This document shows positions 7,324-64,000 of a DNA stretch of 64,000 bases, in pieces. The notes beneath the pieces are model-generated. The model was not told the origin of the DNA. It searched no databases and worked only from the letters and a program-made list of their open reading frames with translations. Numbering within the stretch: the stretch's first letter is position 1; each line of letters opens with the position of its first letter. This stretch comes from Begonia masoniana (taxonomy: Eukaryota; Streptophyta; Magnoliopsida; Cucurbitales; Begoniaceae), in assembly GCA_022432975.1 (NCBI GenBank), contig CM039505.1, positions 25,675,825 to 25,739,824 of the forward strand, in the 5' to 3' direction. The translations under genes were made by a program, and so were the position numbers.

Positions 7324-9753
7324 TGTAACACCCGGCATTTTGTCATGTAAATATTCCTTGAATTATTAGACGGAATTAATGAGAATAAAAAACAACGGAA
7401 GGGCAAAATAGGAAGCCAATTAAGGTTGGTGGGAGGAAGCCAATGGTTGAGTGACACTTGACAACTTGTTGAAGAAGCCATGTTCTTCTTCTCTTTCCTC
7501 CTACGTGAAACCCTCATTTTTCCTCTGCTTCTTTCCACTCCCCTATGTTTTCTCTCTTCCAGACGACAAACGCTCTTCGAAGTTCCTTCGATCTCCTCAG
7601 TTTTCTTCTGTTTCTCTGCCTGAGGTAAACATCTGCTAAAGTTAACAAGTTTGGATAAGTTAAAATGTGAGTTTTGTTGTAGTTTGGGGTTACGATAATT
7701 TGGAGAGAACTCATTGTTTTTGCATGAAAACACGTTGGTTTGTTTTCTAAAGATTTGAATGGAGTTTGAAGCATATTCAACTAAGTTATTAGTTAGCATT
7801 TGTAGCTTTGTTAATTTCTCTTTTCGTGCACGTCATAAGGTTCGTGCATCACCGTGGTTTCACGAGCAAAGTTTGCTGTTTTTCGGATATCAAGTAAGTT
7901 CATGTGTGTAGATCGGCCCTTAAGGCCCTACAACACGGAGATACTAGGATTTACTTTGTCGGGTTATTTCGGGTAGATAAGTTAGAGTTTCGTTCTGATT
8001 TTTCTGTATTTCTTTTCTTTTTCTGCCGTTTATTTCCTGTTGTCTGCTATTTCAAGTTGGAGTCCTGTAAACGTCCATGCATACACGTTTTTCGAAAGCT
8101 CATGCAAAATGTTTTCTGTACACGTTTTGAAGTTAAAAAAGATAAAAATCTGAATGTAATGTATCGGTTAAGTGTAGGACGGGGACTGGCCCTCTGTTTC
8201 TGTATATTCTGTATTTCTGTATGTGCCTGATAGTGCACTTGCCAGTTCCCCTATAAGCCCCACTTATACTCCTCTGCCAGTGAAACATAATGTAATGTAC
8301 TGTCACTGTATTCTGAAAGTTCATGCATAAAGCATATGCATCACTGCATTTTATTCATGTTCTAACTGAGTTTTAGACTCATAGGTGAACTCCCTGTTGT
8401 AGGTACGGATCACGTGGATGATGACTTTGTGCCCCAGTCTGACGAATAGGTGGGTGGTGGCTCGAGCTTTCGGGGGTGGTTGCGACAGCCAGACATATTT
8501 CTGTCCTGAGGTTTAAGTTTCTAAAGTAAAGTTCATATCTGTAAACTCTACTGGGATTCTGGTGTTTTGTTTTTAAAACTCTGTTGGAAATTTGGATAAT
8601 GTGCAGGTTTGGTGTCTAAGTTTTTAAACCTCTGTAATTGACAGTTGTATATATGTTTTGAAAACATTCTGGAACTGCTTGAGTTTTTCCTTTTTAGGTT
8701 GTGCATGGATGGTCTCGAATTTTAGAGCTATCCATGCAGTCTGTTTTCTTGAATCTCTGTCATTTGTAAAGTATGTTTTACAACTTAGTTTTGAATTGGG
8801 TTTTGAGAGTCTGAAAATTTTTATGCCTTCTGTTTTATGCTCCTTGTTTATACGTTTTCCTGTTAAAAGTTGTCAAATTTTGTCTTTAAAACTGCGTCTT
8901 CCGCTACGGTTTATTTAAGCCCTCCGGTTTATTTACATCTTCCGCCTTTGTCACCCAGTCTACATCTTCCGCTCAGTTTCAATTACATCTACTGCCTTAT
9001 GGCTACGTCCACCACTCCGGTTTAATTATGTCTTCTGGTTTATTTATGTCACCCGCTCCTGTCACCCAGTCTATATCTTCCGTCAGTTTACTTACATCTA
9101 CCGTCTGACATCATCCACCACATCTTCCGCCAATTCAACTACATCTTCTGTCTGACGTCATCCACCCACATCTTCTGCCAATTCAACTACATCTTCTGTC
9201 TGACGTCATCCACCCACATCTTCCACCCAATTCACTTACATCTACCGTCTAATGTCATCCACCCACATTTTCCACCAGTTCAACTATATCTTCCGCCTGA
9301 CGTCATCCACCCACATCTTCCGCTCAATTCACTTACATCTACCGTCTGACGTCATCCACCCACATCTTCCGCAAGTTCAACTACATCTTCCGCCCTATAT
9401 CACCCTATTCTATCATTTACTGTAGCTTTCTCCCAGTATGCCTTTCAGTTTATATTTTTCATTTATTTTCACTGCATGTATTTTATCACGTTTTCCTCTG
9501 CATGCCCGTCGTCCATCCAGTCTTTTATTTAAACGTTCCAAGTATTCTGATTTCCTTCTGTCATTCATTCTGCAGTCTGATTTAACTGTTTTCCATTTTG
9601 CTTTTAAATCTAGAGAATGTTTTCTCTCTCTGTAAAGTCTTAAGGGTTTGTTTTAAAGGTTCAGTCTGTTTATTCAAAAAAAAAAATAGTCCCCGTTTTG
9701 AATGTCCCGGAGTGATGTCTTCTCGGACCCCGATTAGGTCGGGGGCTGTCACA
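7324..9753 (+). mobile_element. solo LTR, gypsy type
   Basis: It starts TGTAACACCCGGCATTTTG and ends GGGGGCTGTCACA, 2430 bp, flanked by TTGGA on both sides (7319-7323 and 9754-9758). It interrupts a tRNA-like module of the TIR element, which continues intact afterwards. It closely resembles the LTRs of the large chromovirus at 26134-55950 and the LTR starting at 62561. Landmarks: a donor-like CAAGTAAGT at 7892, the conserved CTTAAGGCCCTAC box near 7920, an acceptor-like TGTAGGT at 8399, the acidic 15-codon frame at 8402, and a degenerate minisatellite of ACGTCATCCACC/CATCTTCCGCC units at about 8930-9410. Confidence 0.92.
8402..8449 (+). other. acidic 15-codon frame in LTR (copy 1)
   Basis: After TGTAG, codons from GGT read GTDHVDDDFVPQSDE and then TAG. 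The same position in the other LTRs holds an acidic frame of identical length. It may be the last exon of a spliced LTR transcript, joined to a donor at 7894. Expression is not shown. Confidence 0.45.
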
Positions 9754-10078
9754 TTGGAGGTCCTGAGTTCGAGTGCTGGGGAAGGCAAAAACTCCTCAAC
9801 CAGGAGGGGAGACCTTTTTTGTGGACCCTCCAGCCCAACACTATGGGATATCGCGGAGTTTAGTTCAAGTTGTACTAGCACTTGTAGCCTATGGATCTAG
9901 TAGCTTGGAGGTCCTGGGTTCGAGTGTTGGGGAAGACAAAAACTCCTCAACCAGGGGGAGAAGGTCGTGAGTGGGGACCACCCAGTGCTCCGCGATAACC
10001 CATAGTGTTGGGCTGGAGGGTGATGTGTTGAGTTAAAACTCAGCGATATTCCATAGTGTTGGGCCGGAGGGTTCCACA
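9754..10078 (+). repeat. modules 4 (end) and 5 of the TIR element
   Basis: Module 4 has its A box at 7275-7286, before the solo LTR, and a B box at 9766-9774 with one mismatch. A T6 run at about 9808-9813 is a potential RNA polymerase III terminator. Module 5 follows with terminal motif, weak A box (9861-9872), B box (9917-9925) and two inverted terminal motifs that form the right end of the element. Confidence 0.65.
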
Positions 10079-10083
10079 GATAA

Positions 10084-13190: not shown

Positions 13191-14901
13191 ACCGTGCAGA
13201 AGTTTGATTGTCACAATTCAGAGGCGGGCCTAACAAAATGTCGGGTCGGGCATGTAACACCCGGTTTTGCGAGATTTTATAATTCCATTAAATAATTGCA
13301 TTTTTGTAAATATGTCAATTAAGTCTGTTTTGCGAACGGAAAAGTTTTATTGGAACCTAAATAATAAATTGGAATTATAGTGAAATAAGGAAATTTGGAG
13401 AAAACGAATAGTTAGTCAAATAGCGAGAAAGGTGGAGAAACAAATATAAATCAAATGGAGGGGTAAATAAGTAATTTGCCAAGCAAAATTTTATTAAAAA
13501 TCACAAAATCCTTTCTTCCTCAACACTTCAACGAAACTTTCATTTTCTCTCCTCTCCTCGCGGCGATTCGTTCTCCGATCTTTGAAGTTTCTTCACGTTT
13601 TCTCCTCCAAACCCGACTCTAGGTATGAATCTATAGTTTTGGAGCTTTATATTTCAATTTCTAGGGTTATACGGATTAGGGTTTCGTTAGGGTTTTGTTA
13701 GAAACGTGAAATAGGGTTTGAGATCGATAGAGTTACCGTCATTATGGCTCAAATGGACGTATTTATGGTCGTTGGTGCGAATGAGTTGAATTAATGAAGG
13801 TTGTTGTGAATTGTCTTAGGTGAACAACGCTCGTGGACGGAGCCTGAGTTGCAACGGACACGAGGTAAGTTTCCGTGACTCGTTTGACCGATTGGCCTAC
13901 ACCATATGACTATGTCGATCGAGGAATTGGAGATGCTTGCTGTGTTGGGTAATTAAGTTGGGTAGTTAGTTTAGTTAGATTGTTGAATGTATAAGTTTAT
14001 TGTTTGTTGTGCTTTGTTTTCGTTATGTCATTGCACACATGCACGCATCATGGTTTTATAAAAAGCATGAAAAAGGAATTTATATGCATGTTTTTACAAA
14101 ACGGAAAGGAATAACGAAAAGGTAAATGAATGTAATGATGGTCACATCGGTGGCGGTGGTTCAGACATGGCTGTCGGATGAAGCATGTTTTCCTCTGTAA
14201 CACCCGGTTTCAATATAAATCAAAATAAGTTATTAAACGGAGGTATATAATCTTATGGTTTAAAATTGAGTGAAATGTTGATTAGGTTATTAAGTGACTA
14301 GGCAGGGGTAAGATGGTAATTGCGAATTTATATTGTGGATAACGTATTTAAGGAAAGTGTTAATGAGATAGCCGCCACTGTTTCATTTCATTTCCTCTTC
14401 CACTCTCAGCTCCTCAGCTTAGCAGAGCGCGATAGGAGACCCTCTTCGATCCCTCCAGCGATTTCCTCAGAACTATGTGAGTTTTGCTTTTATTTCTTGC
14501 TACATTGTAACTGTCGAGGGTTGATAAATGAAGTTTTGAGAATGCGGTATGTGAGTGCTAGTTTCGGTTTATGAGTTGAATCGGGAATGCACTACGATTA
14601 GGGCTTCCAAACTAATTTCCTTAGCTTTCTGGGTAGCTAGAAGGAAGTTTGACGAAAGTTTAAATTAATGTTCGATTTGTGGAACTAGGTTTGAGCAAAC
14701 TCCCGAGGGAGAGGTTTCAACAAGCTTCCCAGGAGACCAGGTAAGTGAAGTTTGCTTGTGCCTTCGGGCCTACATCACAAAACGTTAGGATTATGATTAC
14801 TTGTGTGAATCTGTATTCTATGCATCATGTTTTAAAACATACGAAAATGAATTTGAATGCATGATTGGCATGGTAAGGATTGAACATATTGAAACAGTCA
14901 T

Positions 14902-15127
14902 GAGAATCAGTTTCACTGTTAAGGGAATTAATCCACCCCTTAATGAGACAGGGATGTATGTACTTTGGAAGAGCTGATCCAACTTCCAATTAAACAGGGG
15001 GATCTGAACAGGAGAATCAGTTTCACTGTTAAGGGAATTAATCCACTCCACCCCTTAATGAGACAGGGATGTATGTACTTTGGGAGAGTTGATCCAACTC
15101 CCAATTTCACAGGGGGATCTGAACAGA
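14902..15127 (+). repeat. tandem duplication of about 113 bp
   Basis: A block starting AGAATCAGTTTCACTGTTAA and ending at GGGGATCTGAACAG occurs twice in a row with a few substitutions and a small length difference. It lies inside the putative intron of the solo LTR 14196-16327. Confidence 0.8.
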
Positions 15128-15252
15128 AACGAAGCATGAGCAACTGAGTTGAGAAAGTAGAAATTGCATATTAGGAATTTATATTTCGTTGTTTCATTTC
15201 TTGTTGGCTTTACTTACTTAGCATTAGGCTAATAGATGAGTTTTGTGATGTA

Positions 15253-15300
15253 GGTGTTGAGGACACTGCAGGTGAGTTTCCTGAGTGCACAGATGATTGA
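15253..15300 (+). other. acidic 15-codon frame in LTR (copy 2)
   Basis: After TGTAG the frame reads GVEDTAGEFPECTDD and then TGA. Joined to the upstream donor at 14741 in the phase used by the other copies, it would be preceded by residues LPRRP. Confidence 0.45.
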
Positions 15301-15758
15301 TGTGGTTGGAGGAGTACATCCATGTCTCGGCTTGGTAAACTGTTGAGGCGGGCTAACTGGTGTCAGCAGATGTTGAGGTTTAGTTGATAATGATCTAGTC
15401 TGAGTAGGTCGAGTTTTCACGACAGTAGAGATTTTAGTATTTCGAATATATTTTGAATATTATCAATTCTAGCAACCTCTTGAGTTTTAAGAGTTGGTTT
15501 TTACTGGATTTGATTAATGGAATGGTTTGAATTGTCTTTGAAAGGTCTTGGAGAGGCAAGAAAAATTTCTGTCTGTAGTTAGAGTTGTGCCTGTTTTTCT
15601 ATCGGATGATGTCGAGTGTTTTAGTCGCCCGTTGATGTCGAGCTTTTGCTCGTCAGATATTAAGGGTTAAGTCATTCGGATGAGGAGATCATCCGGATGA
15701 CGTCACCGGTTGATATAGAGAAAGTCGTTTGGATGAGGAGATCATCCAGCTGACGTCA

Positions 15759-16010
15759 CCGGTGGATGTCCCTGTTAGACTGACCGGATGACTAAATTTA
15801 TATTTTGTCGTTTAGTGACCGGTGGATGTCCCTGTTAGACTGACCGGATGACTAAATTTATATTTTGTCTTTTAGTGACCGGTGGATGTCCCTGTTAGAC
15901 TGACCGGATGACTAAATTTATATTTTGTCGTTTAGTGACCGATGGATGTCCCTGTTAGACTGGCCGGATGACTAAATTTTATGTTTTGTCGTTTAGCGAC
16001 CGGATGAAGT
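15759..16010 (+). repeat. 60-bp tandem repeat, about four copies
   Basis: Exactly 60-bp units containing GGTGGATGTCCCTGTTAGAC and GACCGGATGACTAAATTTAT repeat four times, the last copy being degenerate. Position inside the LTR, after the acidic frame and before the LTR end, matches the minisatellites of the other LTRs. Confidence 0.85.
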
Positions 16011-16530
16011 CTCCAAAAAGCCTTCTCCTTTTGTTGACTTTGTTCAAAGCGGACCGAGTTTGACTTTTTCGATTTTAAAGTATTTTCACGAGTTAAACCT
16101 TTGCTTCTTAATCGATTGTTTCTTAAGATTTCTAACGTTTTTTTAACGTGGTCTTTGTTAATTTTATTTTTGTTTAAACGAATTTCCGCTGCAAGATTTA
16201 AATATTTTGAGCTTTTAGAAAATATCAAATTTAACTGTCGAGCGAAGTTTTAAAAAAAAAGAGAGATTTCTTAGTCATGATCAAGCTTTATGTAGCGAAC
16301 CGGGTTCAGAAAACTCGGGGCGTTACATCCTCCCAGTTAGATACGAGGGGCTATCCAATCGCCGGTTGTGCCGCTCCTATCTAGCGAGAGTGAAGCCCCG
16401 GTGACATAAAATGAAATGAAATGAATAGCGAAAAGGTAGGAAGCATGATTTATGAAATGAGTTCACCATTGCTACATGCATTCACGTAGACTTACTGAGC
16501 CTATAACTCACATTTTATTTCTATGGTGTA

Positions 16531-16578
16531 GGTGACTTCGATATAGGTGAGGACGACATTCCTCCGCCCGATGTCTAA
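16531..16578 (+). other. acidic 15-codon frame in LTR (copy 3)
   Basis: After GTGTAG the frame reads GDFDIGEDDIPPPDV and then TAA. A 45-nt exon-like block ending at 13864 (after CTTAG, before GTAAGT) is open in the same phase and would add EQRSWTEPELQRTR before it. The intron would now contain the nested solo LTR. Confidence 0.45.
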
Positions 16579-17084
16579 GCAGGTTGAAGAAGAATGCTCG
16601 TGGGAGTGTGCTGGCTCAGTCGGTGCTTAGTTTGACCCTTGGGGACTAAGTATGTGTTTTGGAAAATTGATGGATAGAAAGATAGGAAAATGATATAGTT
16701 AAACATTTTAGGATGCTTGGATCTGGATAGATATTGTATAGTGTTTTTGAAGATTGATAGTATTTTGTAGTGTTTTTGATATTTGTATAGTTAGAAACAT
16801 TTGGATGTGCATTTTGGATAGTTCGTGACATATATGTATATAATGTTCATTTTGATATTTCTGGAAATAGAGAATGTTATTTTTAAAGTTTTTTTGGAAG
16901 TTCTGAGTGAATGGTGTGTAAGTACAGGGGGGAAATTGTAGGGGTTTCGATTAAGTGTTCGTTAGATTCTGTCGTTTTGTGATCGACAAAAGTTTGTATA
17001 AGTGTTTGGTCAAAGTCAACCAGCAGATGTGTTCGGTTACTATTGACCGGTGGATGCTTGGTGAATAAGTCATCCGGCTGACGT

Positions 17085-17225
17085 CACCGATGGATATGTT
17101 TTGTGAGTGATTGGTGGATGTGTTTTGTGAGTGATCGGTGGATGTGTTTTGTGAGTGATTGGTGGATGTGTTTTGTGAGTGATCGGTGAATGTGTTTTGT
17201 GATTGAGCGGTGGATGTGAGTTGAC
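17085..17225 (+). repeat. minisatellite in LTR of gypsy element 1
   Basis: About five units of roughly 25 bp with core GGTGGATGTGTTTTGTGAGT, alternating GATTGG and GATCGG. Confidence 0.75.
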
Positions 17226-17486
17226 CGGTGGATGTAGCTTAGCAGAAGTGAGCGGAGGATGTGAACAGAAAAAATTTTGGGCTTGGGCCCTTTTTGCCCT
17301 CTGTTCTGCTGGGCCGATTCCTCTTCTGTTTTAATGGTTTTATTTAATTGATTTTTAAATATGTTTCAACAATTTATACTTTGACTTATCAATTTAATGA
17401 AAGGGTTTACTAGAAAGTTATAAAAATAAATAAATAAATAAATAATACGGAAAAATAAGGGTACAGTGTACGGGTCGTTACAGTTA

Positions 17487-19363: not shown

Positions 19364-21728
19364 TGTAACACCCGAGTTACGACTAGGTAATTTTCCTAAC
19401 TGTATTAACGGTCATGAACATTTAATCTTCGCGGTTTAGAATTTTAAGACAAGTGTAACTAATTACATGTGGGTTTAAACTAGGTCGAGTGGCAAAGTTG
19501 TAATAATAGAGGGCTTAGACCGATATTTAAAGGAAGTGGAAATGATTTAAACCTCATTAACTCACTGTAGCCGACATCCTCCATTCTCGGCGATTCCTTC
19601 TCTCACAAGCTCTCGCCCTCTGCCTGCCTGTAATCCTTCCTTCGACTACCAGTTCCCTTGCTATTTCTCGGTTACCTTACGCTCGAGGTATGAGTTAGAC
19701 AATGTAGTTATCAGTTAATCGTTTAGCTCTGTTTTCAGCTTGAACCCGTAACTCAAATCCTTAAACAACAGGGTAATAATATAGTTCATTGTTAATCTGA
19801 GAGTGGTAATGTCATTCCGAATCAGATTTGGACATTTAAAAACAATCAACCCTGAGTAACCGGTAGCCGAATCTGTCTATTTCAGTTCTTGGATTTCAGA
19901 TTTTGCACAGACCGTTAGACTAAGGATTCAGGATGGCTTTGTCTATTAGACCCTAGGATAACTTGAGGTTAGAATGCTAAGGAGACCAGGTAAGTGAATG
20001 TATAGGTTTCCCGGTCAATAGGACCCTACATCAAAGGATGCCAGGTAGAAACTCATACGATGATCAGTGGTTCTTTCATGTTACTGTCTAGCATTTATGT
20101 TGATGAGTAGTTCGATAGTAAGTTTTCACACTGAATGATTGTTCTGTCCTATAGCTAGGATGAGATAAAGAATCCCATGCTCATGCATTATCAATGATTT
20201 ATGCACACGAAAATGTTTTAAATGCATGTTTTCTCATGAACAAGATAAGGTGATAAAATCCCTACAACGTGGATGAGTGAGGGTTGGGGGCGGTTCGGCG
20301 TATGTCACAGTCCGCAGTAGGACATAAGAATACGACCCGCAGTAAGGACCATGATCAAACTCACTGTCGAACCCTCTTTACCGGCACAAATCCTCTCTCA
20401 TCCCACACAACATGAACAATGATATGAATGATGAAGATGGTTCAACGATATGAACTATGATATGAATGATGAATGTGGTTCAGCGATATGAACAATGATA
20501 TGAAAGATGAATACGATCTATGATTATGAATGATGAATACAAACAAGAACATGAACCAGAAATGATTTATGAGCATGTTTTCTCTGAATTATGCATTCAT
20601 GCACTCGTGATAGTATTGCATTCCTTACTAAGCCTTAGGCTTACAGTTACACCTTATGATGTAGGTGAAGAACATTCAGGTGAGGATTTCAAGATCAATG
20701 AGGATGTTTAGGACTGGCTGCTGGATGGTGTTCAAGGTGCAAGTCTGTGGCTGGATGGTGATGGAAACTCTGGTTTATGCTCTATGAACGTTAGTAATGA
20801 TTTTTAATATAGAAGTATAAATGGAATGAAGTTGTGTTATGGTACTGGGATTTGAAATTGTCTGGTTGGTTACTGAATTGAGGATGGTACAATTTATTGA
20901 ATATCTTTTGTTTAAGACTTCCGCTATAGGTACTCTGAGGGAATCATTGATTTCTGTTTATAGAAATGTTAAGTCTGGAAAGTTTGAGACTTGCTTATGA
21001 TCATGTCTATTGGGAGATGTTGTTTAGTCCTACCGGTAGGAGTGGTGTGTTTTCTATCGGTAGACGCAGGATTTCTTTTGCTATCGGTAGAAGTAGTGAG
21101 ATTTCTGTCGGTAGATACAGTGTGTTTATATCGGGTGATGTAGGAGTCTTTTTCCCTGTCGCCTAGTCATCGGTAGATGTAGTTTGTATATTTTTCCTGC
21201 TGACATCATCGGCAGATACAGTTTGTTTATCCTCCTGCTGACGTCATCGGCAGATGTAGTTTATATACCCTCCTGCTGACGACATCGGCAGACGCGGTTT
21301 GATTATCTGCTGGCTGACGTCATCGGCAGATGCGGTTGTATATCTGCCGACGAACGTTTAATGAATTGTGTTGGATACACGTGACTGTCGGTTGATGTGA
21401 GAACTTACGTCTACCGATGGGTGATTAATGAATCACGTGAAATGCACGGGATAACCGGAAGATGTAGCTTTGGTTTATCGGTAGATGTGAGCCCTCTCCT
21501 GCCTTGTCGTTTAGTGATCGGCAGATGAGAGTGAAGTTTTGTCGTTGAGTTCGGCAGATGTCTTTTTTTAAAAATCCCCCCAGCTAAATGTCTTATTTCA
21601 TTGTCCATGTCCTACACGTGACTACAGAATTAGTATTTCCGCTGCTTAGTAAAAAAAAGAACATATAAAAGAGTGAAAGGAGTGAGTAAAGTCATGAATT
21701 ACGTGGCGATCCTTCCCGGGTCGTTACA
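19364..21728 (+). mobile_element. solo LTR inside gypsy pol
   Basis: It starts TGTAACACCCGAGTTACGAC and ends CCCGGGTCGTTACA, 2365 bp, with CTAAA on both sides (19359-19363, 21729-21733). RT coding resumes exactly after it. It contains a donor-like CCAGGTAAGTG at 19986, the box GACCCTACATCA near 20023, an acceptor-like GATGTAGGT at 20659 and the acidic frame at 20664. A minisatellite with CTGCTGACGTCATCGGCAGA units lies at 21190-21330. Confidence 0.93.
20664..20711 (+). other. acidic 15-codon frame in LTR (copy 4)
   Basis: After TGTAG the frame reads GEEHSGEDFKINEDV and then TAG. If spliced to the donor at 19990, the upstream sequence supplies an in-frame ATG: M-L-R-R-P directly before the G, giving a complete 20-residue peptide. 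Confidence 0.45.
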
Positions 21729-22397: not shown

Positions 22398-22497
22398 NNN
22401 NNNNNNNNNNNNNNNNNNNNNNNNNNNNNNNNNNNNNNNNNNNNNNNNNNNNNNNNNNNNNNNNNNNNNNNNNNNNNNNNNNNNNNNNNNNNNNNNN
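22398..22497. other. assembly gap (100 N)
   Basis: Exactly 100 N, the usual placeholder for a gap of unknown size. The sequence changes from gypsy RT before it to the inside of a minus-strand LTR after it, so the two sides need not be neighbours in the genome. Confidence 0.98.
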
Positions 22498-26133: not shown

Positions 26134-27341
26134 ATGAAGGGGTAAATTGGGAAGGAATTATGGTAGGTGGGAGGGAGCCAATGCATGGTTGCCAAATGTC
26201 CATAACTTGATGAGAAACCTACCTATTGTTTTCTCTTCTCTCCTCTTCTACGTAAACCTTCATTTTTATCATCTTCTATGTTTTCTCTCTTCCAGGCGAC
26301 CAGCAACAATCCTAAGCTTTTTCTTTTCTTTTCCTGATTTCTCCATTTTCACTAGCAGAAGGTTCGTGAACCACTGTGATCGTGCGTTCAAGCTTGCAGC
26401 ACTTCGGACAACAGGTAAGTTCATGCGTAAAGTTGGCCCTTAAGGCCCTACAGCATGGAGGTACTAGGTTTTGGTTCGGGTAGATAGGTCGTAGGTTATA
26501 CTTTAAACTAAACGTGTTCTGTGTGTTATGTTTCATGTTTGTTTTCATTCTGTCGCCTATCTCTGTTATGTTCAAGCACTATATCTGTTCATGCATACAC
26601 GTTTTCTGGAAAACCATGCAAATGTTTTTCAGCACTAGATTTGAAGTTATGAAAGTTAAAAATATGAATGTAATGTATGGTTAAGTGTGGACGAGGACTG
26701 ACCTCCTGTTATGTACTCCTGTTATGTCCTATTGTGGCATGTACTCCTGTTGCGCCAGCTCTTCCTCCCACTTATACCTTCATGTCCAGTGAAACGTAAT
26801 GTAATGTTCATGTATTTGGAAAAATGTTCATGCACAGCATATGCATCACTGCATTGTATGTTCTTACTGAGCTCTAGGCTTATAGTTGAACTCCCTGTTG
26901 TAGGTACGGAACCTATGGATGAGGATTTTGTGCCTCAATCCGACGAATAGGTGGTTGGTGACACGAGCTTTCGGGGGTGGTTGCGGTAGCCAGACATATT
27001 TCTGACCCGAGAGAGTGAAGTTTTTTTAAAGTAAAGTTCATGTTTGTAAACTCTGATGGGATTCTGGGGTTTTTGTTTTAAAACTCTGTTGGGAACTCTG
27101 TTGGGTTTTTATAATGTATAGGTTTTGGTGTTTAAGTTTTTAAACCTCTGTAATTGATAGTTGTATATATATTTTGAAACATTCTGGAACTGTTTGAAGT
27201 TTTTCTCTTTTAGGTTGTGCATGGATTATCTCTGGTTTTAGAGCTATCAATTCAGTTTGATTTCTTAAACTTCTGTTATGTTCTCTAACACGTTTAAAAT
27301 TATGTTTTGAATCGGGCTTTGGGGTTTGAAGTTTTTATGCC
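26134..27341 (+). mobile_element. 5' LTR of gypsy element 2, first part
   Basis: It aligns with the 3' LTR of the same element from about 170 bp inside the LTR start onward; the first 170 bp, with the TGTAACACCC end and the left target copy, are missing. It contains GACAACAGGTAAGT at 26407, the box CTTAAGGCCCTACAGCA near 26440, an acceptor-like TGTAGGT at 26900 and the acidic frame at 26903. The LTR is interrupted at 27341 by the Athila-like element and resumes at the 27-bp array (33983) to end at 35673. Confidence 0.85.
26903..26950 (+). other. acidic 15-codon frame in LTR (copy 7)
   Basis: GTEPMDEDFVPQSDE and then TAG. Splicing to the donor at 26415 would place LRTT before it. Confidence 0.45.
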
Positions 27342-29020: not shown

Positions 29021-29026
29021 AGTTTT

Positions 29027-38800: not shown

Positions 38801-40234
38801 CCCACCATCCTAGACCGAATTAAGGAAGCCCAGAATACCAATTCAAAGGAAATGGCTGATATAGTAAGCAAGTTACCTATGGCCTCTTCCGATTTCAGTT
38901 ACTTGGGAGATGGTATTCTGAAGTTCAAAGATAGGTGGTATGTTTCGAGAGACGAAGAGCTGCGAAGGGACATTTTATCAGAAGCCCACTCGTCTTCTTT
39001 TTCTGTGCATCCTGGAAGCACGAAGATGTATCAAGACTTGAAACTTCACTTCTGGTGGCCAAATATGAAGAACGAAGTAGCCAAGTATGTGGAGTCTTGC
39101 ATGATATGTCAACAAGTCAAAGCTGAACATCAACGACCAGGTGGAACGCTTCAGCCTCTTCCGATCCCTGAATGGAAGTGGAAGAATATCACTATGAACT
39201 TCGTTGTTCACCTACCGAGGACGGCTAAGGGCCATAATAGCATATGAGTCATAGTAGACAGATTGACGAAATCGGCCCATTTTCTACCTGTGAAGACGAC
39301 GTTCTCCATGGATCAGTATGCAGAGCTATACATTAGCGAGATCATCAAGTTGCATGGGGTGCCAATATCAATTGTATCGGACCGGGACCCTAGATTCACT
39401 TCGAGGTTCTGGAAAAGCTTGCAACACTCTTTGGGTACCAAGTTAAATTTCAGCACAGCCTTTCATTCACAGACTGATGGACAATCCGAGAGAACGATCC
39501 AGATACTGGAGGATATGTTAAGGTCGTGCGTGCTGGAATTTCATGCTCCTAGGAGTAGATACTTGCCGTTAGTGGAGTTCGCTTATAATAATAGCTACTA
39601 GGCTATGATCGGCATGGCTCCATATGAAGCTCTTTACGGCAGGAAGTGTAGATCCCCATTGTGTTGGGATGAAGTCGGATAAGCCAAGCTTATCGGCCCT
39701 GTGTTATTACAGCAGATGTCCGAGATGATTGCTACTATCAAACAACGAATAAAGATTGCTCAGAGTCGATAGAAGAGTTACGCGGACCAGAGGAGAAGAG
39801 ACTTAGAGTTTGCTGAGGGCAATGAAGTATTCTTGAAAGTGTCACCTTTTAAGGGTGTAATGAGATTCGGTAAGAAAGGAAAGCTCAGCCCACGGTTCAT
39901 TGGACCTTTTCCCATCTTGAAGCGTGTGGGAAGAATGGCTTACAGACTACAGCTGCCAGCGTCAATGGACGGAGTTCACAATGTTTTTCATGTTTCGATT
40001 CTGAGAAAATGTGTACGAGATCCAACTCAAATCATGGAACATGTGGACTTTGATATCATGCCGACGCTGACATATGAAGAAAGGCCCATACAGATATTGG
40101 ATACTTCACTCAAGGTTTTGCGCAACAAGGTAGTTCTATTGGTGAAAGTTTTGTGGTGCAATTATAATGTGAAAGAAGCCACATGGGAAAAACAACAAGA
40201 TGTTAGAGCCCAATATCCGGAGCTATTCGCTTAA
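35831..40234 (+). pseudogene. gypsy element 2 gag-pol, chromovirus (broken)
   Basis: A single frame of about 1468 codons opens at ATG 35831 and ends at TAA 40234, the usual length for a Tekay-like chromovirus. Order: gag core, CCHC knuckle [14 protein letters not shown] (about 36725), protease [10 protein letters not shown] (about 36895), RT with [19 protein letters not shown] (37577) and FIDDVLVYS (37904), and RNase H ([15 protein letters not shown]). Integrase follows with its zinc-binding region and core ([31 protein letters not shown]), then a C-terminal chromodomain (about 40080-40230) that would direct insertion to modified histones. Breaks: stops at about 35993, 37874, 39245, 39599, 39679 and 39769, and frameshifts between 38225 and 38395. 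The first integrase Asp is Asn (codon 39197-39199). Dead as it stands. Confidence 0.93.
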
Positions 40235-40274: not shown

Positions 40275-40814
40275 TGTAACACCCGACAATTTGGCAATGT
40301 AAATATTCCCTTGAATTATTAAACGAATTAATGGGAATATTTATACAATGTATGTTTTTATGAATTTGCCGATATTTTCAATTGAATGTGAGTGATTCGT
40401 AAAACCGATTCGATGAACTAAATAGTAATTTAGTTAAAAACCAATAGTTTAAAATGCATGGAGGAGTAAATTGGAAGGAATTATGGCAGGTGGGAAGGAG
40501 CCAATGGATGGCTGCCAAATGTCCATAACTTGCTGAGAAACCTACTTATTGTCTTCTCTTCCCTCCTCTTCTACATAAACCTTCATTTTCATCATCTTCT
40601 CTTTTCTCTCTTCCAGGTGACCAGCAACAATCCTAAGCTTTTTATTTTTTTCCTGATTTCTCCATTTTCTCTAGCAGAAGGTTCGTGAACCACTGTGATC
40701 GTGCATTCAAGCTTGCAGCACTTCGGACAACAGGTAAGTTCATACGTAAAGTTGGCCCTTAAGGCCCTACAGCATGGAGGTACTAGATTTTAGTTCGGGT
40801 AGATAGGTCATAGG
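40275..40814 (+). mobile_element. 3' LTR of gypsy element 2, first part
   Basis: Starts TGTAACACCCGACAATTTGG 40 bp after the pol stop and gives the true LTR 5' end missing from the other copy. It contains the donor-like CAACAGGTAAGT (exon end 40733) and GGCCCTTAAGGCCCTACAGC, then is cut at 40814 by the copia element. It resumes at 52803. Confidence 0.9.
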
Positions 40815-41962
40815 TGTTAGCTTAAAATGTGTTTAAGTGACTATTATTATTTTAATGATTATGTTTAAACTGGATAATTATGATTAACATGATATTAGTG
40901 AACTAATGATTATTTTGAAATACATGGACTGCATATTTGAATTATGACATAAACTGTATTTATCTGGAAATGCCCTTGAAATGGGTATTATGTTTTCTAA
41001 CATTTTGGCTAAGTGTTAATAGTCTGTGGAAATCAATCGTCCAAAGTTATTAAGAATCAATTGTCCACAGTTCTGCCAAAGTCAATCGTCCATGGTCAAG
41101 ACAGAAAAGTTAAGATGAAATCAATCGTCCAAAGTATCACGTGAAAGTCAGATGACTTCTGTCAAAATTAGTCGTCCACGATAACAGCAGACGCAGTCGT
41201 CCACGATGAATAGTAAAGACGCAATCGTCCACGATGAATAATAAAGACGCAGTCGTCCACGATGAATAAGTAAAGACGCAGTCGTCCACGCTAACAGCAG
41301 CGTAGTCGTCCATATTTACTCATCCAAAGGCTTAGCGCCAGAGACTTTAAAGACAGCTAGCGATAGCGATTCCTGAATTTGAAACGACTATTTTTCTGAG
41401 TACGGAAAGCTCTCCAACGGTCATATTTTTGAAGAAGACTCAGATTGCAGACGAGAGTATAAAATGAAGAACTGTAGCTCAAGGAAAGAACTTTTGCTAA
41501 AATCATCTCTGAATCCTCACGAGCAAATACTTGGCAATACTTTGTATTTCTACTACATCTCTCTACTCTGTTAACTTGAGATTTAACTTTTGAAAGAGTG
41601 TAGCGTGTGCTAAAAATCATATCCTTACTGTGAAAAGTGTAAAGGCAGTGGATTGTCACCCGTTAAGAACAATACAGATTTGTAAAAGGCTGTAGATCGT
41701 CGCCCGTGAAGTGCGATCTAGTTTTCTCTGAGGAGAAAGAAAAAATCTTCAAGGGGGAGCCTTGGAGCGTGGACGTAGGCAAGTTTGGCCGAACCACGTT
41801 AAAAACTACAGTGTCATTTTTCTCTCTATCTCTTACTTTGTTTGTGCCTGTGTGTTTGTTGTCAATTTAGTAATTGCATACAAGAGAGAAAGCGATTAGA
41901 TTAAGTTGATAAAATTTAATAAGTCTAATTCACTCCCCCTCTTAGACAATAACGATTCTATA
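40815..41962 (+). repeat. 5' LTR of the copia element
   Basis: 1148 bp from TGTTAGCTTAAAATGTG to GATTCTATA. It holds only about five units related to the 28-bp repeat (41190-41310), against 114 in the 3' copy, plus older degenerate AATCGTCCA units from 41030. Confidence 0.88.
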
Positions 41963-51900: not shown

Positions 51901-52104
51901 TCCACGATGAATAGTAAAGACGCAGTCGTCCACGATGAATAGTAAAGACGCAGTCGTCCACGATGAATAGTAAAGACGCAGTCGTCCACGATGAATAGTA
52001 AAGACGCAGTCGTCCACGATGAATAGTAAAGACGCAGTCGTCCACGATGAATAGTAAAGACGCAATCGTCCCTGATGAATAGTAAAGACGCAGTCGTCCA
52101 CGAT
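48913..52104 (+). repeat. 28-bp tandem array, 114 copies
   Basis: Unit: GAATAGTAAAGACGCAGTCG followed by TCCACGAT. The stretch 48913-52104 is exactly 114 x 28 bp. Copies are identical by eye except for one variant near 52060 (CAATCGTCCCTGAT). On the minus strand no frame has a stop, so three very long frames appear; they are artefacts of the repeat. The array is the expanded minisatellite of the copia LTR, here in its 3' LTR. Confidence 0.97.
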
Positions 52105-52802
52105 GAATAAGTAAAGACGCAGTCGTCCACGCTAACAGCAGCGCAGTCGTCCATACTTACTCGTCCAAAGGCTTAGCGCTAGAGACTTTAAAGACAGCGA
52201 GCGATAGCGACTCCTGAATTTCAAACAGCTATTTTTCTGAGTACGGAAAGCTCTCCAACGGTCATATTTTTGAAGAAGACTCAGATTGCAGACGAGAGTA
52301 TAAAACGAAGAACTATAGCTCGAGGAAAGAACTTTTGCTAAAATCATCTCTGAATCTTCACGAGCAAATACTTAGCAATACTCTGTATTTCTACTACATC
52401 TCTCTACTCTGTTAACTTGAGATTTAACTTTTGAAAGAGTGTAGCGTGTGCTAAAAATCATATCCTTACTGTGAAAAGTGTAAAGGCAGTGGATTGTCGC
52501 CCGTGAAGAACAATCCAGATTTGTAAAAGGGTGTATATCGTCGCCCGTGAAGTGCGATCTATTTTTCTCTGAGGAGAAAGAAAGAATCTTCAATGGGGAG
52601 CCTTGGAGTGTGGACGTAGGAAAGTTTGGCCGAACCACGTTAAAAACTACGGTGTCATTTTTCTCTCTATCTCTTACTTTGTTTGTGCCTGTGTGTTTGT
52701 TGTCAATTTAGTAATTGCATATAAGAGAGAAAGCGATTAGATTAAGTTGATAAAATTTAATAAGTCTAATTCACCCCCCTCTTAGACAATAACGATCCTA
52801 CA
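52105..52802 (+). repeat. 3' LTR end of the copia element
   Basis: Matches 41263-41962 of the 5' LTR with scattered substitutions and ends CGATCCTACA. The LTR portion 5' of the array is missing. Confidence 0.88.
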
Positions 52803-53371
52803 GTAGGTTATACTTTAAACTAAATGTGTTCTGTGTGTTCTGTTTCATGTTTGTTTTCATTCTTTGCCTATCTCTGTTATGTTCAAGCACCGTATCTGTT
52901 CATGCATACACGTTTTCTGGAAAACCATGCAAATATTTTTCAGCACCAGATTTGAAGTTATGAAAGTTAAAAATGTGAATGTAATGTATGGTTAATTGTG
53001 GACGAGGACTGACATCCTGTTATGTACTCCTGTTATGTCATGTTGTGGCATGTACTCTTGTTGCGCCAGCTCTTCCTCCCACTTATACCTTCCTGTCCAG
53101 TGAAACGTAATGTAATATTCATGTATTTGAAAAAATGTTCATGCACAGCATATGCATCACTGCATTGTTTGTTCTTACTGAGCTCTAGGCTCATAGTTGA
53201 ACTCCATGTTGTAGGTACAGAACCTATGGATGAGAATTTTGTGCCTCAGTCCGACGAATAGGTGGTTGGTGGCACGAGCTTTCGGGGGTGGTTGCGGCAG
53301 CCAGACATATTTCTGACCCGAGAGAGTGAAGTTTTTTTAAAGTAAAGTTCATATCTGTAAACTCTGTTGGG
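52803..53371 (+). mobile_element. 3' LTR of gypsy element 2, middle part
   Basis: Resumes the host LTR at GTAGGTTATACTTTAAAC and runs to CTGTTGGGAT, where it switches abruptly to the 27-bp array. The roughly 280 bp or more present at 27065-27341 in the 5' LTR are missing at this junction. Confidence 0.85.
53214..53261 (+). other. acidic 15-codon frame in LTR (copy 8)
   Basis: GTEPMDENFVPQSDE and then TAG. One residue (D to N) differs from the 5' LTR copy at 26903. In this LTR the donor-like site (40734) is now 12 kb away because of the copia insertion. Confidence 0.45.
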
Positions 53372-55773
53372 ATCCACTCTATGTCATCCGCCCCTGTCAT
53401 CCACTCTATGTCATCCGCCCCTGTCATCCACTCTATGTCATCCGCCCCTGTCATCCACTCTATGTCATCCGCCCCTGTCATCCACTCTATGTCATCCGCC
53501 CCTGTCATCCACTCTATGTCATCCGCCCCTGTCATCCACTCTATGTCATCCGCCCCTGTCATCCACTCTATGTCATCCGCCCCTGTCATCCACTCTATGT
53601 CATCCGCCCCTGTCATCCACTCTATGTCATCCGCCCCTGTCATCCACTCTATGTCATCCGCCCCTGTCATCCACTCTATGTCATCCGCCCCTGTCATCCA
53701 CTCTATGTCATCCGCCCCTGTCATCCACTCTATGTCATCCGCCCCTGTCATCCACTCTATGTCATCCGCCCCTGTCATCCACTCTATGTCATCCGCCCCT
53801 GTCATCCACTCTATGTCATCCGCCCCTGTCATCCACTCTATGTCATCCGCCCCTGTCATCCACTCTATGTCATCCGCCCCTGTCATCCACTCTATGTCAT
53901 CCGCCCCTGTCATCCACTCTATGTCATCCGCCCCTGTCATCCACTCTATGTCATCCGCCCCTGTCATCCACTCTATGTCATCCGCCCCTGTCATCCACTC
54001 TATGTCATCCGCCCCTGTCATCCACTCTATGTCATCCGCCCCTGTCATCCACTCTATGTCATCCGCCCCTGTCATCCACTCTATGTCATCCGCCCCTGTC
54101 ATCCACTCTATGTCATCCGCCCCTGTCATCCACTCTATGTCATCCGCCCCTGTCATCCACTCTATGTCATCCGCCCCTGTCATCCACTCTATGTCATCCG
54201 CCCCTGTCATCCACTCTATGTCATCCGCCCCTGTCATCCACTCTATGTCATCCGCCCCTGTCATCCACTCTATGTCATCCGCCCCTGTCATCCACTCTAT
54301 GTCATCCGCCCCTGTCATCCACTCTATGTCATCCGCCCCTGTCATCCACTCTATGTCATCCGCCCCTGTCATCCACTCTATGTCATCCGCCCCTGTCATC
54401 CACTCTATGTCATCCGCCCCTGTCATCCACTCTATGTCATCCGCCCCTGTCATCCACTCTATGTCATCCGCCCCTGTCATCCACTCTATGTCATCCGCCC
54501 CTGTCATCCACTCTATGTCATCCGCCCCTGTCATCCACTCTATGTCATCCGCCCCTGTCATCCACTCTATGTCATCCGCCCCTGTCATCCACTCTATGTC
54601 ATCCGCCCCTGTCATCCACTCTATGTCATCCGCCCCTGTCATCCACTCTATGTCATCCGCCCCTGTCATCCACTCTATGTCATCCGCCCCTGTCATCCAC
54701 TCTATGTCATCCGCCCCTGTCATCCACTCTATGTCATCCGCCCCTGTCATCCACTCTATGTCATCCGCCCCTGTCATCCACTCTATGTCATCCGCCCCTG
54801 TCATCCACTCTATGTCATCCGCCCCTGTCATCCACTCTATGTCATCCGCCCCTGTCATCCACTCTATGTCATCCGCCCCTGTCATCCACTCTATGTCATC
54901 CGCCCCTGTCATCCACTCTATGTCATCCGCCCCTGTCATCCACTCTATGTCATCCGCCCCTGTCATCCACTCTATGTCATCCGCCCCTGTCATCCACTCT
55001 ATGTCATCCGCCCCTGTCATCCACTCTATGTCATCCGCCCCTGTCATCCACTCTATGTCATCCGCCCCTGTCATCCACTCTATGTCATCCGCCCCTGTCA
55101 TCCACTCTATGTCATCCGCCCCTGTCATCCACTCTATGTCATCCGCCCCTGTCATCCACTCTATGTCATCCGCCCCTGTCATCCACTCTATGTCATCCGC
55201 CCCTGTCATCCACTCTATGTCATCCGCCCCTGTCATCCACTCTATGTCATCCGCCCCTGTCATCCACTCTATGTCATCCGCCCCTGTCATCCACTCTATG
55301 TCATCCGCCCCTGTCATCCACTCTATGTCATCCGCCCCTGTCATCCACTCTATGTCATCCGCCCCTGTCATCCACTCTATGTCATCCGCCCCTGTCATCC
55401 ACTCTATGTCATCCGCCCCTGTCATCCACTCTATGTCATCCGCCCCTGTCATCCACTCTATGTCATCCGCCCCTGTCATCCACTCTATGTCATCCGCCCC
55501 TGTCATCCACTCTATGTCATCCGCCCCTGTCATCCACTCTATGTCATCCGCCCCTGTCATCCACTCTATGTCATCCGCCCCTGTCATCCACTCTATGTCA
55601 TCCGCCCCTGTCATCCACTCTATGTCATCCGCCCCTGTCATCCACTCTATGTCATCCGCCCCTGTCATCCACTCTATGTCATCCGCCCCTGTCATCCACT
55701 CTATGTCATCCACTCCTGTCATCCACTCTATGTTATCTGCCCCTGTCATCCGCCCCTGTCATCCACTCCTGTC
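53372..55773 (+). repeat. 27-bp tandem array, about 87 copies
   Basis: Same unit as the array at 33983-35490 (CATCCACTCTATGT + CATCCGCCCCTGT), but almost perfectly regular, with no runs of the 13-bp half unit until the last 70 bp. Both strands give long open frames (HSMSSAPVI or its other-frame and antisense versions) that are not genes. Confidence 0.96.
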
Positions 55774-55950
55774 TTCCATTCTACGTCTTCCATTTTATGT
55801 CTTCCATTTTATGCCTTCAACTTTACGTCTTATCATTTTAAATGTTCAAGAGTTTAAAAGTTGGGAAAAATTTTACGTCCAAAAATGTGTAAGTCAAACT
55901 CAAAGTTCAGTCGAGTCCCGTGACAGTCCCGACGGGTCGGGGTTGTCACA
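55774..55950 (+). mobile_element. end of gypsy element 2 3' LTR
   Basis: Nearly identical to 35491-35673 and ends GGGTCGGGGTTGTCACA. The flank ATAAT would be the right target copy; the left one is lost. Confidence 0.85.
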
Positions 55951-56754: not shown

Positions 56755-61720
<4,966 letters not shown>

Positions 61721-62560
61721 GATAGTTTTTCTGGACTTACATACAAAGAAGCAGCAGGAGAGAACTAAAAAAGAGAGAATTCTGAAATGTGGGAAGGAAG
61801 ACAGTTGTTGGGTACCATTTTTGTTAGGTGGAGAAGAAAACATTGTTGGAATACTTCTTGATTCATTGTTTGAAATATTGTTGATTATGTTTTTCTTTTT
61901 CTGTTTCATGATTTATAAGAAATGTATTTGAATTTCTTAAGTAAACAACTCTAATCAAAATCATTGCTCGTGGACTGAATCTGATGTTCACTGAATTTTT
62001 TCGGCTTGGATTGATGTTATTCATATTAAATTTGGTCAAGTTGCCGGATATTGTCCTTAAAAGTCTAAGAATTTGTGACAACGGAGTGTTATGTTATTTT
62101 GTTGCAACTAGTGTATCAAAATAAGATAATGTTAGATTTATTTTTTAATTTTATAATCTTATGTACTTTTTGACTTAGCATTAAAGTGAAATTTATTAAT
62201 TAGTATAATAATTAAGATTAATTATAATAGTTGAATAAAATATTATATATACCAATTAATGAGTGCAACACCAAATAATATGATTAGAGTGTAAAATTCT
62301 AGAGTAAATCTAGCCTTACTAGTCAAAATAAAAACAAGAAAGACATCCTTGAGTGTTCATAACAATGTAGAACTAATAAAATGCGACACATTAGAATTAA
62401 CATGACACTTAATGATGATGATTAGGTGTTATTAAGATGGCACTTGATGAGAGTTAATAGTTTAGTACAAAGCAACTCAGATGGAGTGTCCAAATTCCAC
62501 AAGTCTAAACGCTCACGCTTAGAAGAAACACCAACAACAAGTGGGTGAGTGGGGGAAAAC
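61721..62560 (+). other. 3' UTR of eIF2 gamma and intergenic DNA
   Basis: T-rich sequence with TTTATAAGAAATG near 61912 could hold the poly(A) site, but no canonical AATAAA stands out. From about 62100 it is AT-rich with no gene. It ends at the LTR start. Confidence 0.5.
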
Positions 62561-64000
62561 TGTAACACCCGGCATTTTGCCATGTAATAGTTTTCCCGGA
62601 TCATTTAATCGGGATTAATATTATATTAATACAAAGGAGTGTTTTGGTGGAACTGTTGGAATAATTGTGGAGAACTAAACTAATGTGTAACTAAACAAAA
62701 CATTAAGTTTAAAATGCATGGAAGGGCAATTTGGAGAGAAATTAAGGTTGAAGGGAGTGAGCCAATGGTTGAATGACATCTGGCGACTTGATGAAGAAGC
62801 TAAGTCTTCCTCCTACGTGAAACCCTCACTTCTCATCTGTTTCTTCCTACTGCTCTTTGTTTTCTCTTCCTGGCGATTTTGACAAAGCACCAACACTTTG
62901 TTTCATCGTTTTTCTTCTGTTTCCTTCAACCAAGGTAATCATCTACGGAAGTTATTGATTTTGGACAAGTTTAATGCGAGTTTTCACTGGGGTTTAGGGT
63001 TATTAATTCCGTGAAAACTTACTGTTTTGGATGAAAATACGTTAGTGTGTTTTCCTAAAGAGTTGAAATGAGCTTGCTGCATATTTTACAAGTTATTTGT
63101 TAGCATTTGCAGCTTGTTTAATTTCTCTACATTTCAGCAACAGATCCGAGCATTCTAGGGACATTCGAGCATTCTACACTGCAGCAAACAGGTAAGTTCA
63201 TAACCGTAGGTTGGCCCTTAAGGCCCTACATCACGGAGGTACTAGGTTTCCTGTTCTGTCGGGTTGTTTTGGGTAGAAAGGTTATAGTCTATGTTCTGAA
63301 ATGTCTGGCTTCGATTTATTTTCTGTTGTCTTATTTCTGCTGTCTGCCTGTTTAAGTTCAAGCACCGTTCATGCATACACGTTTTCTCTGAAAGACATGC
63401 AAATGTTTTCTGTACACTGTTTGAAACTAAACAAGATAAAATCCGACTGAAATGTACCAGGTTAAGTGCGAGACGGGGACTGGCCCCAGAACTGTTTACT
63501 GTTTACCGTTTACTATACTGTATCCCTGATTGTGCCTGATAGTGCACCCTCCCCCTCCCCCACTGTTTGTCAGTTCCCCTATAAGCTCCACTTAATTCTA
63601 CTACCCCTGTAACTTAATGCTCTGTACTGTCACCGTATTTCTGAAAAACTGCATGCATAGCATTTTGCATCACTGCATTCTGATTATGTCCTTACTGAGT
63701 TTTAGACTCATAGGTGAACTCTCTGATGTAGGTACTGAACGCGAAAATGAGGACTTTGTGCCTCAGCCTGATGATTAGTTGCTGGTGGATCGAGCTCATG
63801 GGGGTTTGGTTGCTGCAGCTAGACATGATTTCTGTTAAGAGGTTTCTGTAAAGTTTTTCTGAAATCCCGATTTTTGTGTTAAAAACTCTGTAGAAAACTC
63901 ATCTTTTGGTAAATTCTGTAATTATATGTTAAGTCCTGTACTATCCCTCAGATTTTGAAACAATGTACAAGTTCTGATGTTTCAGTTTTAGAAACCACTG
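62561..64000 (+). mobile_element. gypsy LTR, runs off the window
   Basis: Starts TGTAACACCCGGCATTTTGC and is colinear with the solo LTR at 7324. It has donor-like ACAGGTAAGT at 63189, GGCCCTTAAGGCCCTACATC near 63213, acceptor-like GATGTAGGT at 63726 and the acidic frame at 63731. Target copy GAAAAC or shorter lies before it. Whether it is a solo LTR or a complete element cannot be seen. Confidence 0.88.
63731..63778 (+). other. acidic 15-codon frame in LTR (copy 9)
   Basis: GTERENEDFVPQPDD and then TAG. Splicing to the donor at 63192 would place QQT before it. Confidence 0.45.

Follow-up and report, generated by a model that had tools for sequence, protein, structure and literature searches.

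Several LTRs in the window, by which we mean the whole stretch of 64,000 nucleotides of Begonia masoniana DNA analysed here, carry a short acidic reading frame of constant length, which raises the question of what such a frame is doing in a retrotransposon LTR. An earlier note on this DNA had listed nine frames of exactly 15 codons, running from GGT to a stop codon that differs between copies and each directly following TGTAG. All nine are present: at 9/9 of the named sites in the window 15 sense codons lead from GGT to a stop, which is TAG, TGA or TAA. TGTAG precedes eight of the nine, its final G being the first G of the frame; the copy at 24959 follows CAGTA instead because it is cut off at 24956, beside an inserted minus-strand LTR. 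Other details had to be corrected, as the minus-strand copy starts at 23606 (23559 being its low end) and, among the example sequences, GTEPMDEDFVPQSDE belongs to the copy at 26903, the one at 8402 reading GTDHVDDDFVPQSDE. The LTR at 4378-7081 is the exception that it was said to be, with a frame at 5368 (minus) of 35 codons. Over both strands of the window, 8 of the 12 TGTAGGT sites head a 15-codon frame, which is more than chance. The coordinates are collected in Table 1.

Table 1. Positions of the 15-codon frames, candidate splice signals and pol end in the window
Feature	Position	Strand	Remarks
Acidic 15-codon exon (proposed) GTDHVDDDFVPQSDE-TAG	8402..8449	+	LTR a (start 7324); exon proper from 8403, after TGTAG
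Proposed exon GVEDTAGEFPECTDD-TGA	15253..15300	+	Solo LTR b, 14196-16327, TSD TCCTC
Proposed exon GDFDIGEDDIPPPDV-TAA	16531..16578	+	5' LTR c, 13253-14195 plus 16328-17482; PBS next
Proposed exon GEEHSGEDFKINEDV-TAG	20664..20711	+	Solo LTR d, 19364-21728, TSD CTAAA
Proposed exon GEEGSGEDVMFKEDA-TAA	23559..23606	-	LTR e, start 24955, minus
Proposed exon GEEGSGEDTMFKEDA-TAA	24959..25006	+	LTR f, truncated on its 5' side at 24956
Proposed exon GTEPMDEDFVPQSDE-TAG	26903..26950	+	LTR g, 5' LTR of element A
Proposed exon GTEPMDENFVPQSDE-TAG	53214..53261	+	LTR h, 3' LTR of element A
Proposed exon GTERENEDFVPQPDD-TAG	63731..63778	+	LTR i, start 62561
Exception, 35-codon frame, same acceptor	5261..5368	-	LTR j, start 7081, minus
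Putative 3' splice site, CTCAT branch-point-like site and TGTAG	8378..8402	+	LTR a; equivalents in b-e, g-j
Candidate LTR-internal 5' splice site GTAAGT	7894..7899	+	LTR a
Equivalent internal donors	14741 (b), 13865 (c), 19990 (d), 26415 (g), 40734 (h), 63192 (i)		
Equivalent internal donors	24261 (e), 6063 (j)	-	
Putative LTR exon 2, 45 nt, open, phase 1 at both ends	13820..13864	+	LTR c
pol C-terminus, SH3_Tf2-1 and chromodomain, ending YPELFA-stop	39773..40234	+	Element A
3' LTR start	40275..40826	+	Element A; resumes 52803-55950 past inserted element; would belong to the skipped intron

The nine copies represent four diverged LTR groups, {8402, 26903/53214, 63731}, {15253}, {16531} and {20664, 23606, 24959}, and not nine independent cases; those at 26903 and 53214 are the LTR pair of a single element (A). 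A fifth lineage, LTR j (5368, minus), kept the splice acceptor discussed below and lost the 15-codon frame. Between groups the exon is 38-54% identical (24959 left aside), against 54-73% for the 48 nt upstream of it. The 48 nt downstream are 19-35% identical in a gap-free comparison, in part because of indels. The copies at 8402 and 63731 reach 27% in this gap-free comparison, yet the region can be aligned between them.

Protein-level constraint on the frame is supported by several tests. Each of the seven copies tested has exactly six acidic GAN codons, and 42 of their 43 GAN triplets lie in the reading frame. When neutral descent from a frame-bearing ancestor was simulated at approximately the observed divergence, the frame was kept in all seven modelled copies with P=0.001, rising to P=0.003 at 0.8 of that divergence and P=0.012 at 0.6 of it; a net charge of -5 or lower in all seven had P=2e-5, 2e-4 and 2e-3 (1.0, 0.8 and 0.6 of approximately the observed divergence), and frame, stop and acidity jointly had P of about 3e-5 or less. 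In the group {8402, 26903, 63731} third positions make up 11 of the 16 variable columns (binomial 0.004), an excess that is absent from {20664, 23606, 24959} (variable columns 3, 4, 2). Two observations point the other way. Frame 0 already stays open over 8-67 codons ahead of the stated start (10 copies), and the +1 frame is open as well, for 30-40 codons in 8/10 copies, although its stops scatter. The translation constraint claimed earlier thus survives in its fixed stop, lasting acidity and acidic codons confined to one frame, with the third-position excess limited to the 8402/26903/63731 group. Exonic enhancers are typically GA-rich, and the pattern might alternatively be non-coding, a purine-rich splicing enhancer following a conserved acceptor, with a stop shared through ancestry and chance. 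The GA-rich makeup and the acceptor flank, better conserved than the exon, agree with this, and descent accounts for part of the pattern, as indicated by the P of 0.012 with which frame and stop persist at the smallest divergence simulated. We nevertheless consider it unlikely, given the concentration of GAN triplets in one frame, the three different stop codons at a single position and the joint probability of frame, stop and acidity.

A plant-type 3' splice site, with CTNAY about 20 nt before TGTAG/GT (the slash marking the junction), is found in every copy except the truncated f, and because the copies begin at this site we read the 15-codon frame as an exon. No start codon common to all copies was found, spliced or unspliced. 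The stand-alone LTR peptide proposed in the earlier note is disfavoured for these two reasons and is at best weakly supported, and the constrained frame is better taken as a terminal exon, most probably one belonging to pol. An internal CAG or TAG/GTGAG within the exon of b-f and j, which might mark a micro-exon, was set aside; it is absent from the 8402 group.

Transcripts that keep the intron might be translated into a small peptide ending in the 15 codons. Read unspliced, the frame continues upstream without a stop as far as an ATG in d (20664, 48 codons), e (23606, 16), g and h (26903 and 53214, 64) and i (63731, 38), and also in f and j; this explanation was kept for that reason, and the same upstream ATGs in d-j slightly lowered our confidence in a pol exon. 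It remains very unlikely, as a stop precedes any ATG in a, b and c (8402, 15253, 16531), so that a start codon is missing from two of the four frame-keeping lineages and from one member of a third, and as the GTAAGT donor and the acceptor would be left unexplained.

These internal GTAAGT donors, which precede the acceptor in nine LTRs and have a small predicted hairpin on their 3' side, could also belong to a 5' leader whose transcription begins close to the 5' end of the LTR, with LTR exons 1, 2 and 3 spliced and the 15 codons ending a uORF that regulates gag translation. Donor-like exon 1 sites occur in the seven LTRs examined, with CCAAT- or TATA-like motifs upstream of exon 1 (by eye), and an in-frame ATG is found in exon 1 of LTR e, between a TATA-like box and the presumed start site, and in LTR d, five codons before the donor. 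An exon 2, its boundaries picked by eye, can be drawn in 5/7 LTRs with a length divisible by three and no stop in the same phase (45 nt in b and e, as in c, and 54 nt in a and i) and so could also be included in the transcript. In b the AG giving 45 nt was chosen, the alternative AG giving 52 nt and an in-frame stop; exon 2 of g measures 53 nt with an AG boundary and was counted as not divisible by three, d has no exon 2 acceptor, and that of j is 44 nt with a stop. In the seven LTRs tested, exon 1 read in the needed phase runs into a junction stop in a and j, and in b, c, d and i no ATG follows its last stop. A leader of this kind is therefore rather improbable, and it would also leave the database pol models with a tail, described below, unexplained. 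Coding through LTR exon 1 was likewise discarded, as it is not common to the LTRs.

With moderate confidence, we propose that the frame is the last pol exon of Tekay-type chromoviruses, located in the 3' LTR and spliced on as an acidic integrase tail. An intact element would have a donor G/GTAAG just past the chromodomain, where the protein ends YPELF-G-K; the intron would cover the polypurine tract together with the first part of the 3' LTR, and the donor would be joined to TGTAG/GT in phase 1. The junction would recreate the Gly codon and give integrase a 15-residue acidic tail. Unspliced RNA would yield the short C-terminus and, as the only form that retains the polypurine tract, stay the replication template. 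LTR duplication would have produced the copies of the 5' LTR and of solo LTRs as a side effect. The acceptor signals, the frame, its constraint and gene models joining pol to a tail are what is seen here, and from these sequences we infer that splicing probably takes place in Begonia masoniana and that an intact relative of element A would have the donor. Such a flexible tail would most likely tune the contact of integrase and chromodomain with basic chromatin proteins or DNA. A 3' splice site with a phase-1 open exon and a conserved stop is present in 4/5 LTR lineages, j being the exception.

Element A holds the only pol end that tblastn detected in the window. Gag, protease, RT, RNase H, integrase and chromodomain follow each other in the order of a Ty3/gypsy chromovirus (Pfam, on pieces of A), with a partial RT match, 39248-39772 (core integrase) lying outside the scan and a Chromo match of 23.6 bits, just below the cut-off of 25.1. 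The Tekay chromodomain motif is given as EEXTWEXE (excerpts of PMC3350952); element A reads KEATWEKQ at this place and most of 14 aligned relatives EEATWExE. The LTRs are long (2.1-2.4 kb in b, c and d), and in A and c they are followed by TGGTATCAGAGC, a primer binding site labelled as tRNA-Met-type partly after excerpts of PMC3605345. Such a site behind a long LTR is a Tekay trait. The pol frame of A contains several in-frame stops and ends at YPELFA before the 3' LTR begins, thus not running on into it as in CRM group A. No usable phase-1 donor was found at this pol end, a point against the proposal, where TTCGCTTAAGC has GCTTAAG instead of GGTAAG. A donor within the polypurine tract of A was rejected as weak; pol of the relatives usually stops at or just past YPELF.

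The C-termini of database pol proteins bear on the proposed join. We collected 225 of them from 240 rows (120 listed of 7992 matches and 120 listed of 2533) and assigned classes by regular expression. Among these listed matches many Tekay-type proteins end YPELF or YPELF-G-K, 136/225 models ending 0-2 residues past the motif, which counts against the proposed join, and 13/225 being without it. Further endings among them are G-K-F, G-K-V, G-K-I, G-K-P and G-K-S-N-F-E-D, and the G-K endings could represent a G/GTAAG donor read through in the matching phase. Gene models that join a YPELF-type motif to an acidic Gly-initial tail were found, among the listed matches, in Zingiber and Henckelia. Model P0051 (Zingiber) ends YPELF-GEDVSPDTVEDLRME, a tail of exactly 15 residues, and P0125, on a different Zingiber contig, ends in the homologous GEDVSLDTMEGLRTE; P0136 (13 aa), P0133 (29) and P0140 (28) have such tails straight after YPELF or YHELF, so that tail length varies (13, 15, 28, 29). 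In P0045 (Persea) an acidic tail comes after other residues, and the regular expression filed it as read-through. The predicted structure of P0051 is poor (mean pLDDT 66.6, residues 208-220 below 50), which suggests that its tail may be flexible. With its last 40 residues as a query only P0051 itself matched, and scans of viral contigs, bacterial genomes and plasmids returned no plant relatives; the 18-base pattern is also present in two bacterial contigs. Any phase-1 donor fits the phase of the exon, and plant elements are known to produce spliced subgenomic RNAs (excerpts of PMC3735527 and PMC7730604), so the tail might be joined to a different donor further upstream, such as one in gag, to give a small accessory protein like the 3'-LTR proteins of retroviruses. 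We regard this as highly improbable, since the database joins found go to the chromodomain and inspection by eye of the starts of the window's two gag genes showed no obvious phase-1 donor.

Many plants contain Tekay elements in abundance, with more than 60% of beet chromovirus RTs in excerpts of PMC3605345, and the chromodomain is described as the end of their pol. If the pol-exon reading is true, a hidden LTR exon would alter the C-terminus of integrase, the part thought to select insertion sites, and would account for the use of a single transcript as message and template. That Tekay elements across flowering plants share an LTR tail exon, a polypurine-spanning intron, two RNA pools (template and message), two integrase isoforms and an effect on insertion sites is a more tentative and rather doubtful extension.

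Coding sequence in the 3' LTR is familiar from the MMTV superantigen, which is reached by splicing, and from HIV nef, although these are separate and much longer proteins of animal retroviruses. No description of a spliced acidic LTR exon of this type was found in the literature searched. Excerpts of PMC3605345 describe the beet Tekay elements (Bongo) with a continuous ORF, which in Bongo3 stops upstream of the 3' LTR, and mention no spliced tail. Spliced and unspliced RNA pools with differing coding content, as we propose, are described for BARE (excerpts of PMC3735527) and the sunflower elements Tyran and Varan (excerpts of PMC7730604), but these are other elements with other introns, BARE being spliced just past the gag domain. 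CRM group A resembles our proposal in that pol ends within the 3' LTR, which encodes its last part, a putative targeting domain after integrase; it differs in that the coding sequence itself continues into the LTR and encodes a CR motif, not an acidic tail (excerpts of PMC3059260), and 'splic' and 'intron' are absent from the main text of that paper. The gag-pol frame likewise reaches into the 3' LTR in the beet elements Bingo1 (Reina) and Beetle7 (CRM; excerpts of PMC3605345). An unspliced extension of pol into the 3' LTR is thus already known from CRM and Reina chromoviruses, and splicing to an LTR exon is what would set the Tekay-type elements described here apart.

All nine 15-codon reading frames reported in the earlier note, running from GGT to a TAG, TGA or TAA stop, were found within LTRs of probable Tekay-type chromoviruses (Ty3/gypsy; LTRs a to i in the table), where they form four diverged groups (a, g/h and i; b; c; d, e and f). 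A tenth LTR, j, is indeed the exception: it retains the acceptor, but has a frame of 35 codons. The window is filled with nested plant LTR retrotransposons. Among these, element A, of which g and h are the 5' and 3' LTR copies, has model matches in order to gag, protease, RT (partial), RNase H, integrase zinc-binding, SH3_Tf2-1 and chromodomain, the last one slightly below the model cut-off. LTR limits were set by TGTAACACCC starts, GTTACA/GTCACA ends, target-site duplications and primer sites.

Coordinates of LTRs, acidic exons and other features in the window
Feature	Position	Remark
Acidic exons of LTRs a, b, c, d, f, g, h, i	8402, 15253, 16531, 20664, 24959, 26903, 53214, 63731	
Acidic exon of LTR e; 35-codon frame of LTR j	23606 (-); 5368 (-)	
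LTR b, solo	14196-16327	duplication TCCTC
LTR c		5' LTR; b inserted within
LTR d, solo	19364-21728	duplication CTAAA
Element A, 5' LTR parts	26134-27342, 33982-35673	
Element A, 3' LTR parts	40275-40826, 52803-55950	
GTAAGT donor with hairpin-like block	7894, 14741, 13865, 19990, 26415, 40734, 63192 (+); 24261, 6063 (-)	
LTRs resembling 5' gene ends (examples)	13253-17482, 14196-16327, 24955-22400	
Tandem repeats 3' of acidic exon	9075-9394, 15758-16003, 22895-23242, 25271-25629	several LTRs
Large tandem arrays, 28-bp (115 copies) and 27-bp units	48912-52131, 33994-35499, 53372-55791	27-bp inside LTRs of A; 28-bp inside an element inserted in A
Insertion	27342-33982	repeats at both flanks, 98.6% identical
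Plant snoR71 (RF00097, 52.1 bits)	29588-29694 (-)	within insertion 27342-33982
RVT_2 (copia-type) match	45607-46374	within element inserted into 3' LTR of A
Pure T run, 861 bases	58060-58920	possibly assembly artefact
N gap, 100 bases	22398-22497	

All seven copies tested, namely a, g, i, b, c, d and e, contain exactly six GAN codons in frame, compared to 0 and 1 in the other two frames over the whole set. All seven also carry a net charge of -5 or -6, while -5 is attained in 0.2% of open frames in random sequence of matched composition. In neutral simulations on a hand-set tree with lineage j left out, unadjusted for the choice of this site from 64 kb, frame and stop were retained by all seven copies with a probability of 0.001, 0.003 and 0.012 at 1.0, 0.8 and 0.6 of approximately the observed divergence when the ancestor already had the frame; when it also had a charge of -5 or below, such a charge was retained with 2e-5, 2e-4 and 2e-3, and both properties together in 0/1.16 million, 9e-7 and 3e-5. 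Variable columns at codon positions 1, 2 and 3 numbered 3, 2 and 11 in a, g and i (binomial 0.004), or 4, 2 and 11 with h added (0.008), and 3, 4 and 2 in d, e and f, i.e. without a third-position excess. The +1 frame is open for 30-40 codons in 8/10 copies, with scattered stop positions. Given the fixed stop, the in-frame GAN codons and the charge compared to simulation, the acidic frame is a real, constrained feature, and the translation constraint proposed earlier is upheld.

Every copy except the truncated f carries TGTAG/GT directly before the frame and CTNAY about 20 nt upstream, which has the look of plant branch points; the acidic frames start at predicted splice acceptors. Between the four groups, identity is 54-73% in the 48 nt upstream, 38-54% in the exon and 19-35% in the 48 nt downstream (j and f left out; ungapped, so that the downstream figure is deflated). 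A GTAAGT donor precedes the acceptor in nine LTRs (a-e and g-j), at a distance of 489-696 nt in the eight LTRs measured, but 2667 nt in c, which carries the inserted b; in h, donor and acceptor are split by an insertion.

The LTRs examined resemble small multi-exon 5' gene ends, the order being promoter-like motifs followed by three exons with introns between them, namely a CT-rich first exon, exon 2 (44-54 nt; its acceptor is lost in d) and the acidic exon. A GC-rich hairpin-like block closing with CCTACA (e.g. GGCC-CTTAA-GGCC; predicted fold strength -2.8 to -15.5 kcal/mol) lies 3' of the GTAAGT donor in 9/9 LTRs examined and may recall the packaging/dimerisation hairpins of retroviruses. 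Units of some tandem repeats downstream of the exon contain TGACGTCA-like motifs; TGACGTCA itself occurs 4 times in a, 2 in b, 1 in c, 2 in d, 7 in e and 0 in both j and i, the latter clipped at the window end.

The frame had been taken for a separate LTR peptide. Unspliced, frame 0 is open upstream for 8-67 codons and meets an ATG in d, e, f, g, h, i and j, and reaches none in a, b and c. When LTR exons 1 and 2 are joined on, most of the seven LTRs tested either close the frame or lack an ATG; in e an exon 1 ATG lies close to a TATA-like box, and in d an ATG lies just upstream of the donor. Spliced or unspliced, then, the copies have no start codon in common, and a spliced terminal exon of pol is more likely than such a peptide.

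Among the matches listed, 136 of 225 database pol C-termini, with classes assigned by regex, end 0-2 residues past the chromodomain motif; the others are of the G-K type (9), read-through (27), other short ends (11), longer tails (29) or unclassed (13). In one Zingiber protein (P0051) YPELF, the motif closing the chromodomain end, is followed by GEDVSPDTVEDLRME, 15 acidic, Gly-initial residues, and P0125, from another contig of the same species, ends with GEDVSLDTMEGLRTE after other exons (11/15 identical by eye). Acidic Gly-initial tails also occur in P0136 (Zingiber, 13 residues), P0133 and P0140 (Henckelia, 29 and 28). Gly-initial tails of at most 33 residues, minus the G-K read-through P0143, make up 8 of the 29 longer tails among the matches listed; a charge of -5 or below is found in 4/8 (P0051, P0133, P0136 and P0140, but not P0134, P0135, P0167 and P0180) and in 0/5 equally short tails without initial Gly (P0016, P0048, P0058, P0078 and P0166). 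These C-termini point to pol as the probable gene of the acidic exon. The G-K-F and G-K-S ends, read from protein only, would fit codons GGT AAG, a phase-1 G/GTAAG donor.

The pol of element A terminates YPELFA-stop, reading F-A-stop-A-N-F compared to F-G-K-S-N-F in relatives (DNA TTCGCTTAAGCAAATTTT). As the G/GTAAG donor is absent from this pol end and several in-frame stops lie further upstream, this copy has decayed; its pol end neither proves nor disproves the spliced-exon model.

Judged from sequence, the acidic frame is most likely a putative spliced terminal exon of pol within the 3' LTR. The literature searched, which holds few subscription journals, gave no account of Tekay pol taking in an exon from the LTR by splicing, and passages of PMC7730604, PMC6317226, PMC5838962, PMC3735527, PMC3059260, PMC3350952 and PMC3605345 describe no such exon. 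Beet Tekay elements have a continuous ORF and long LTRs (PMC3605345), CRM group A encodes the CR motif in the 3' LTR (PMC3059260), and the gag-pol of Bingo1 (Reina) and Beetle7 (CRM) extends into the 3' LTR (PMC3605345).
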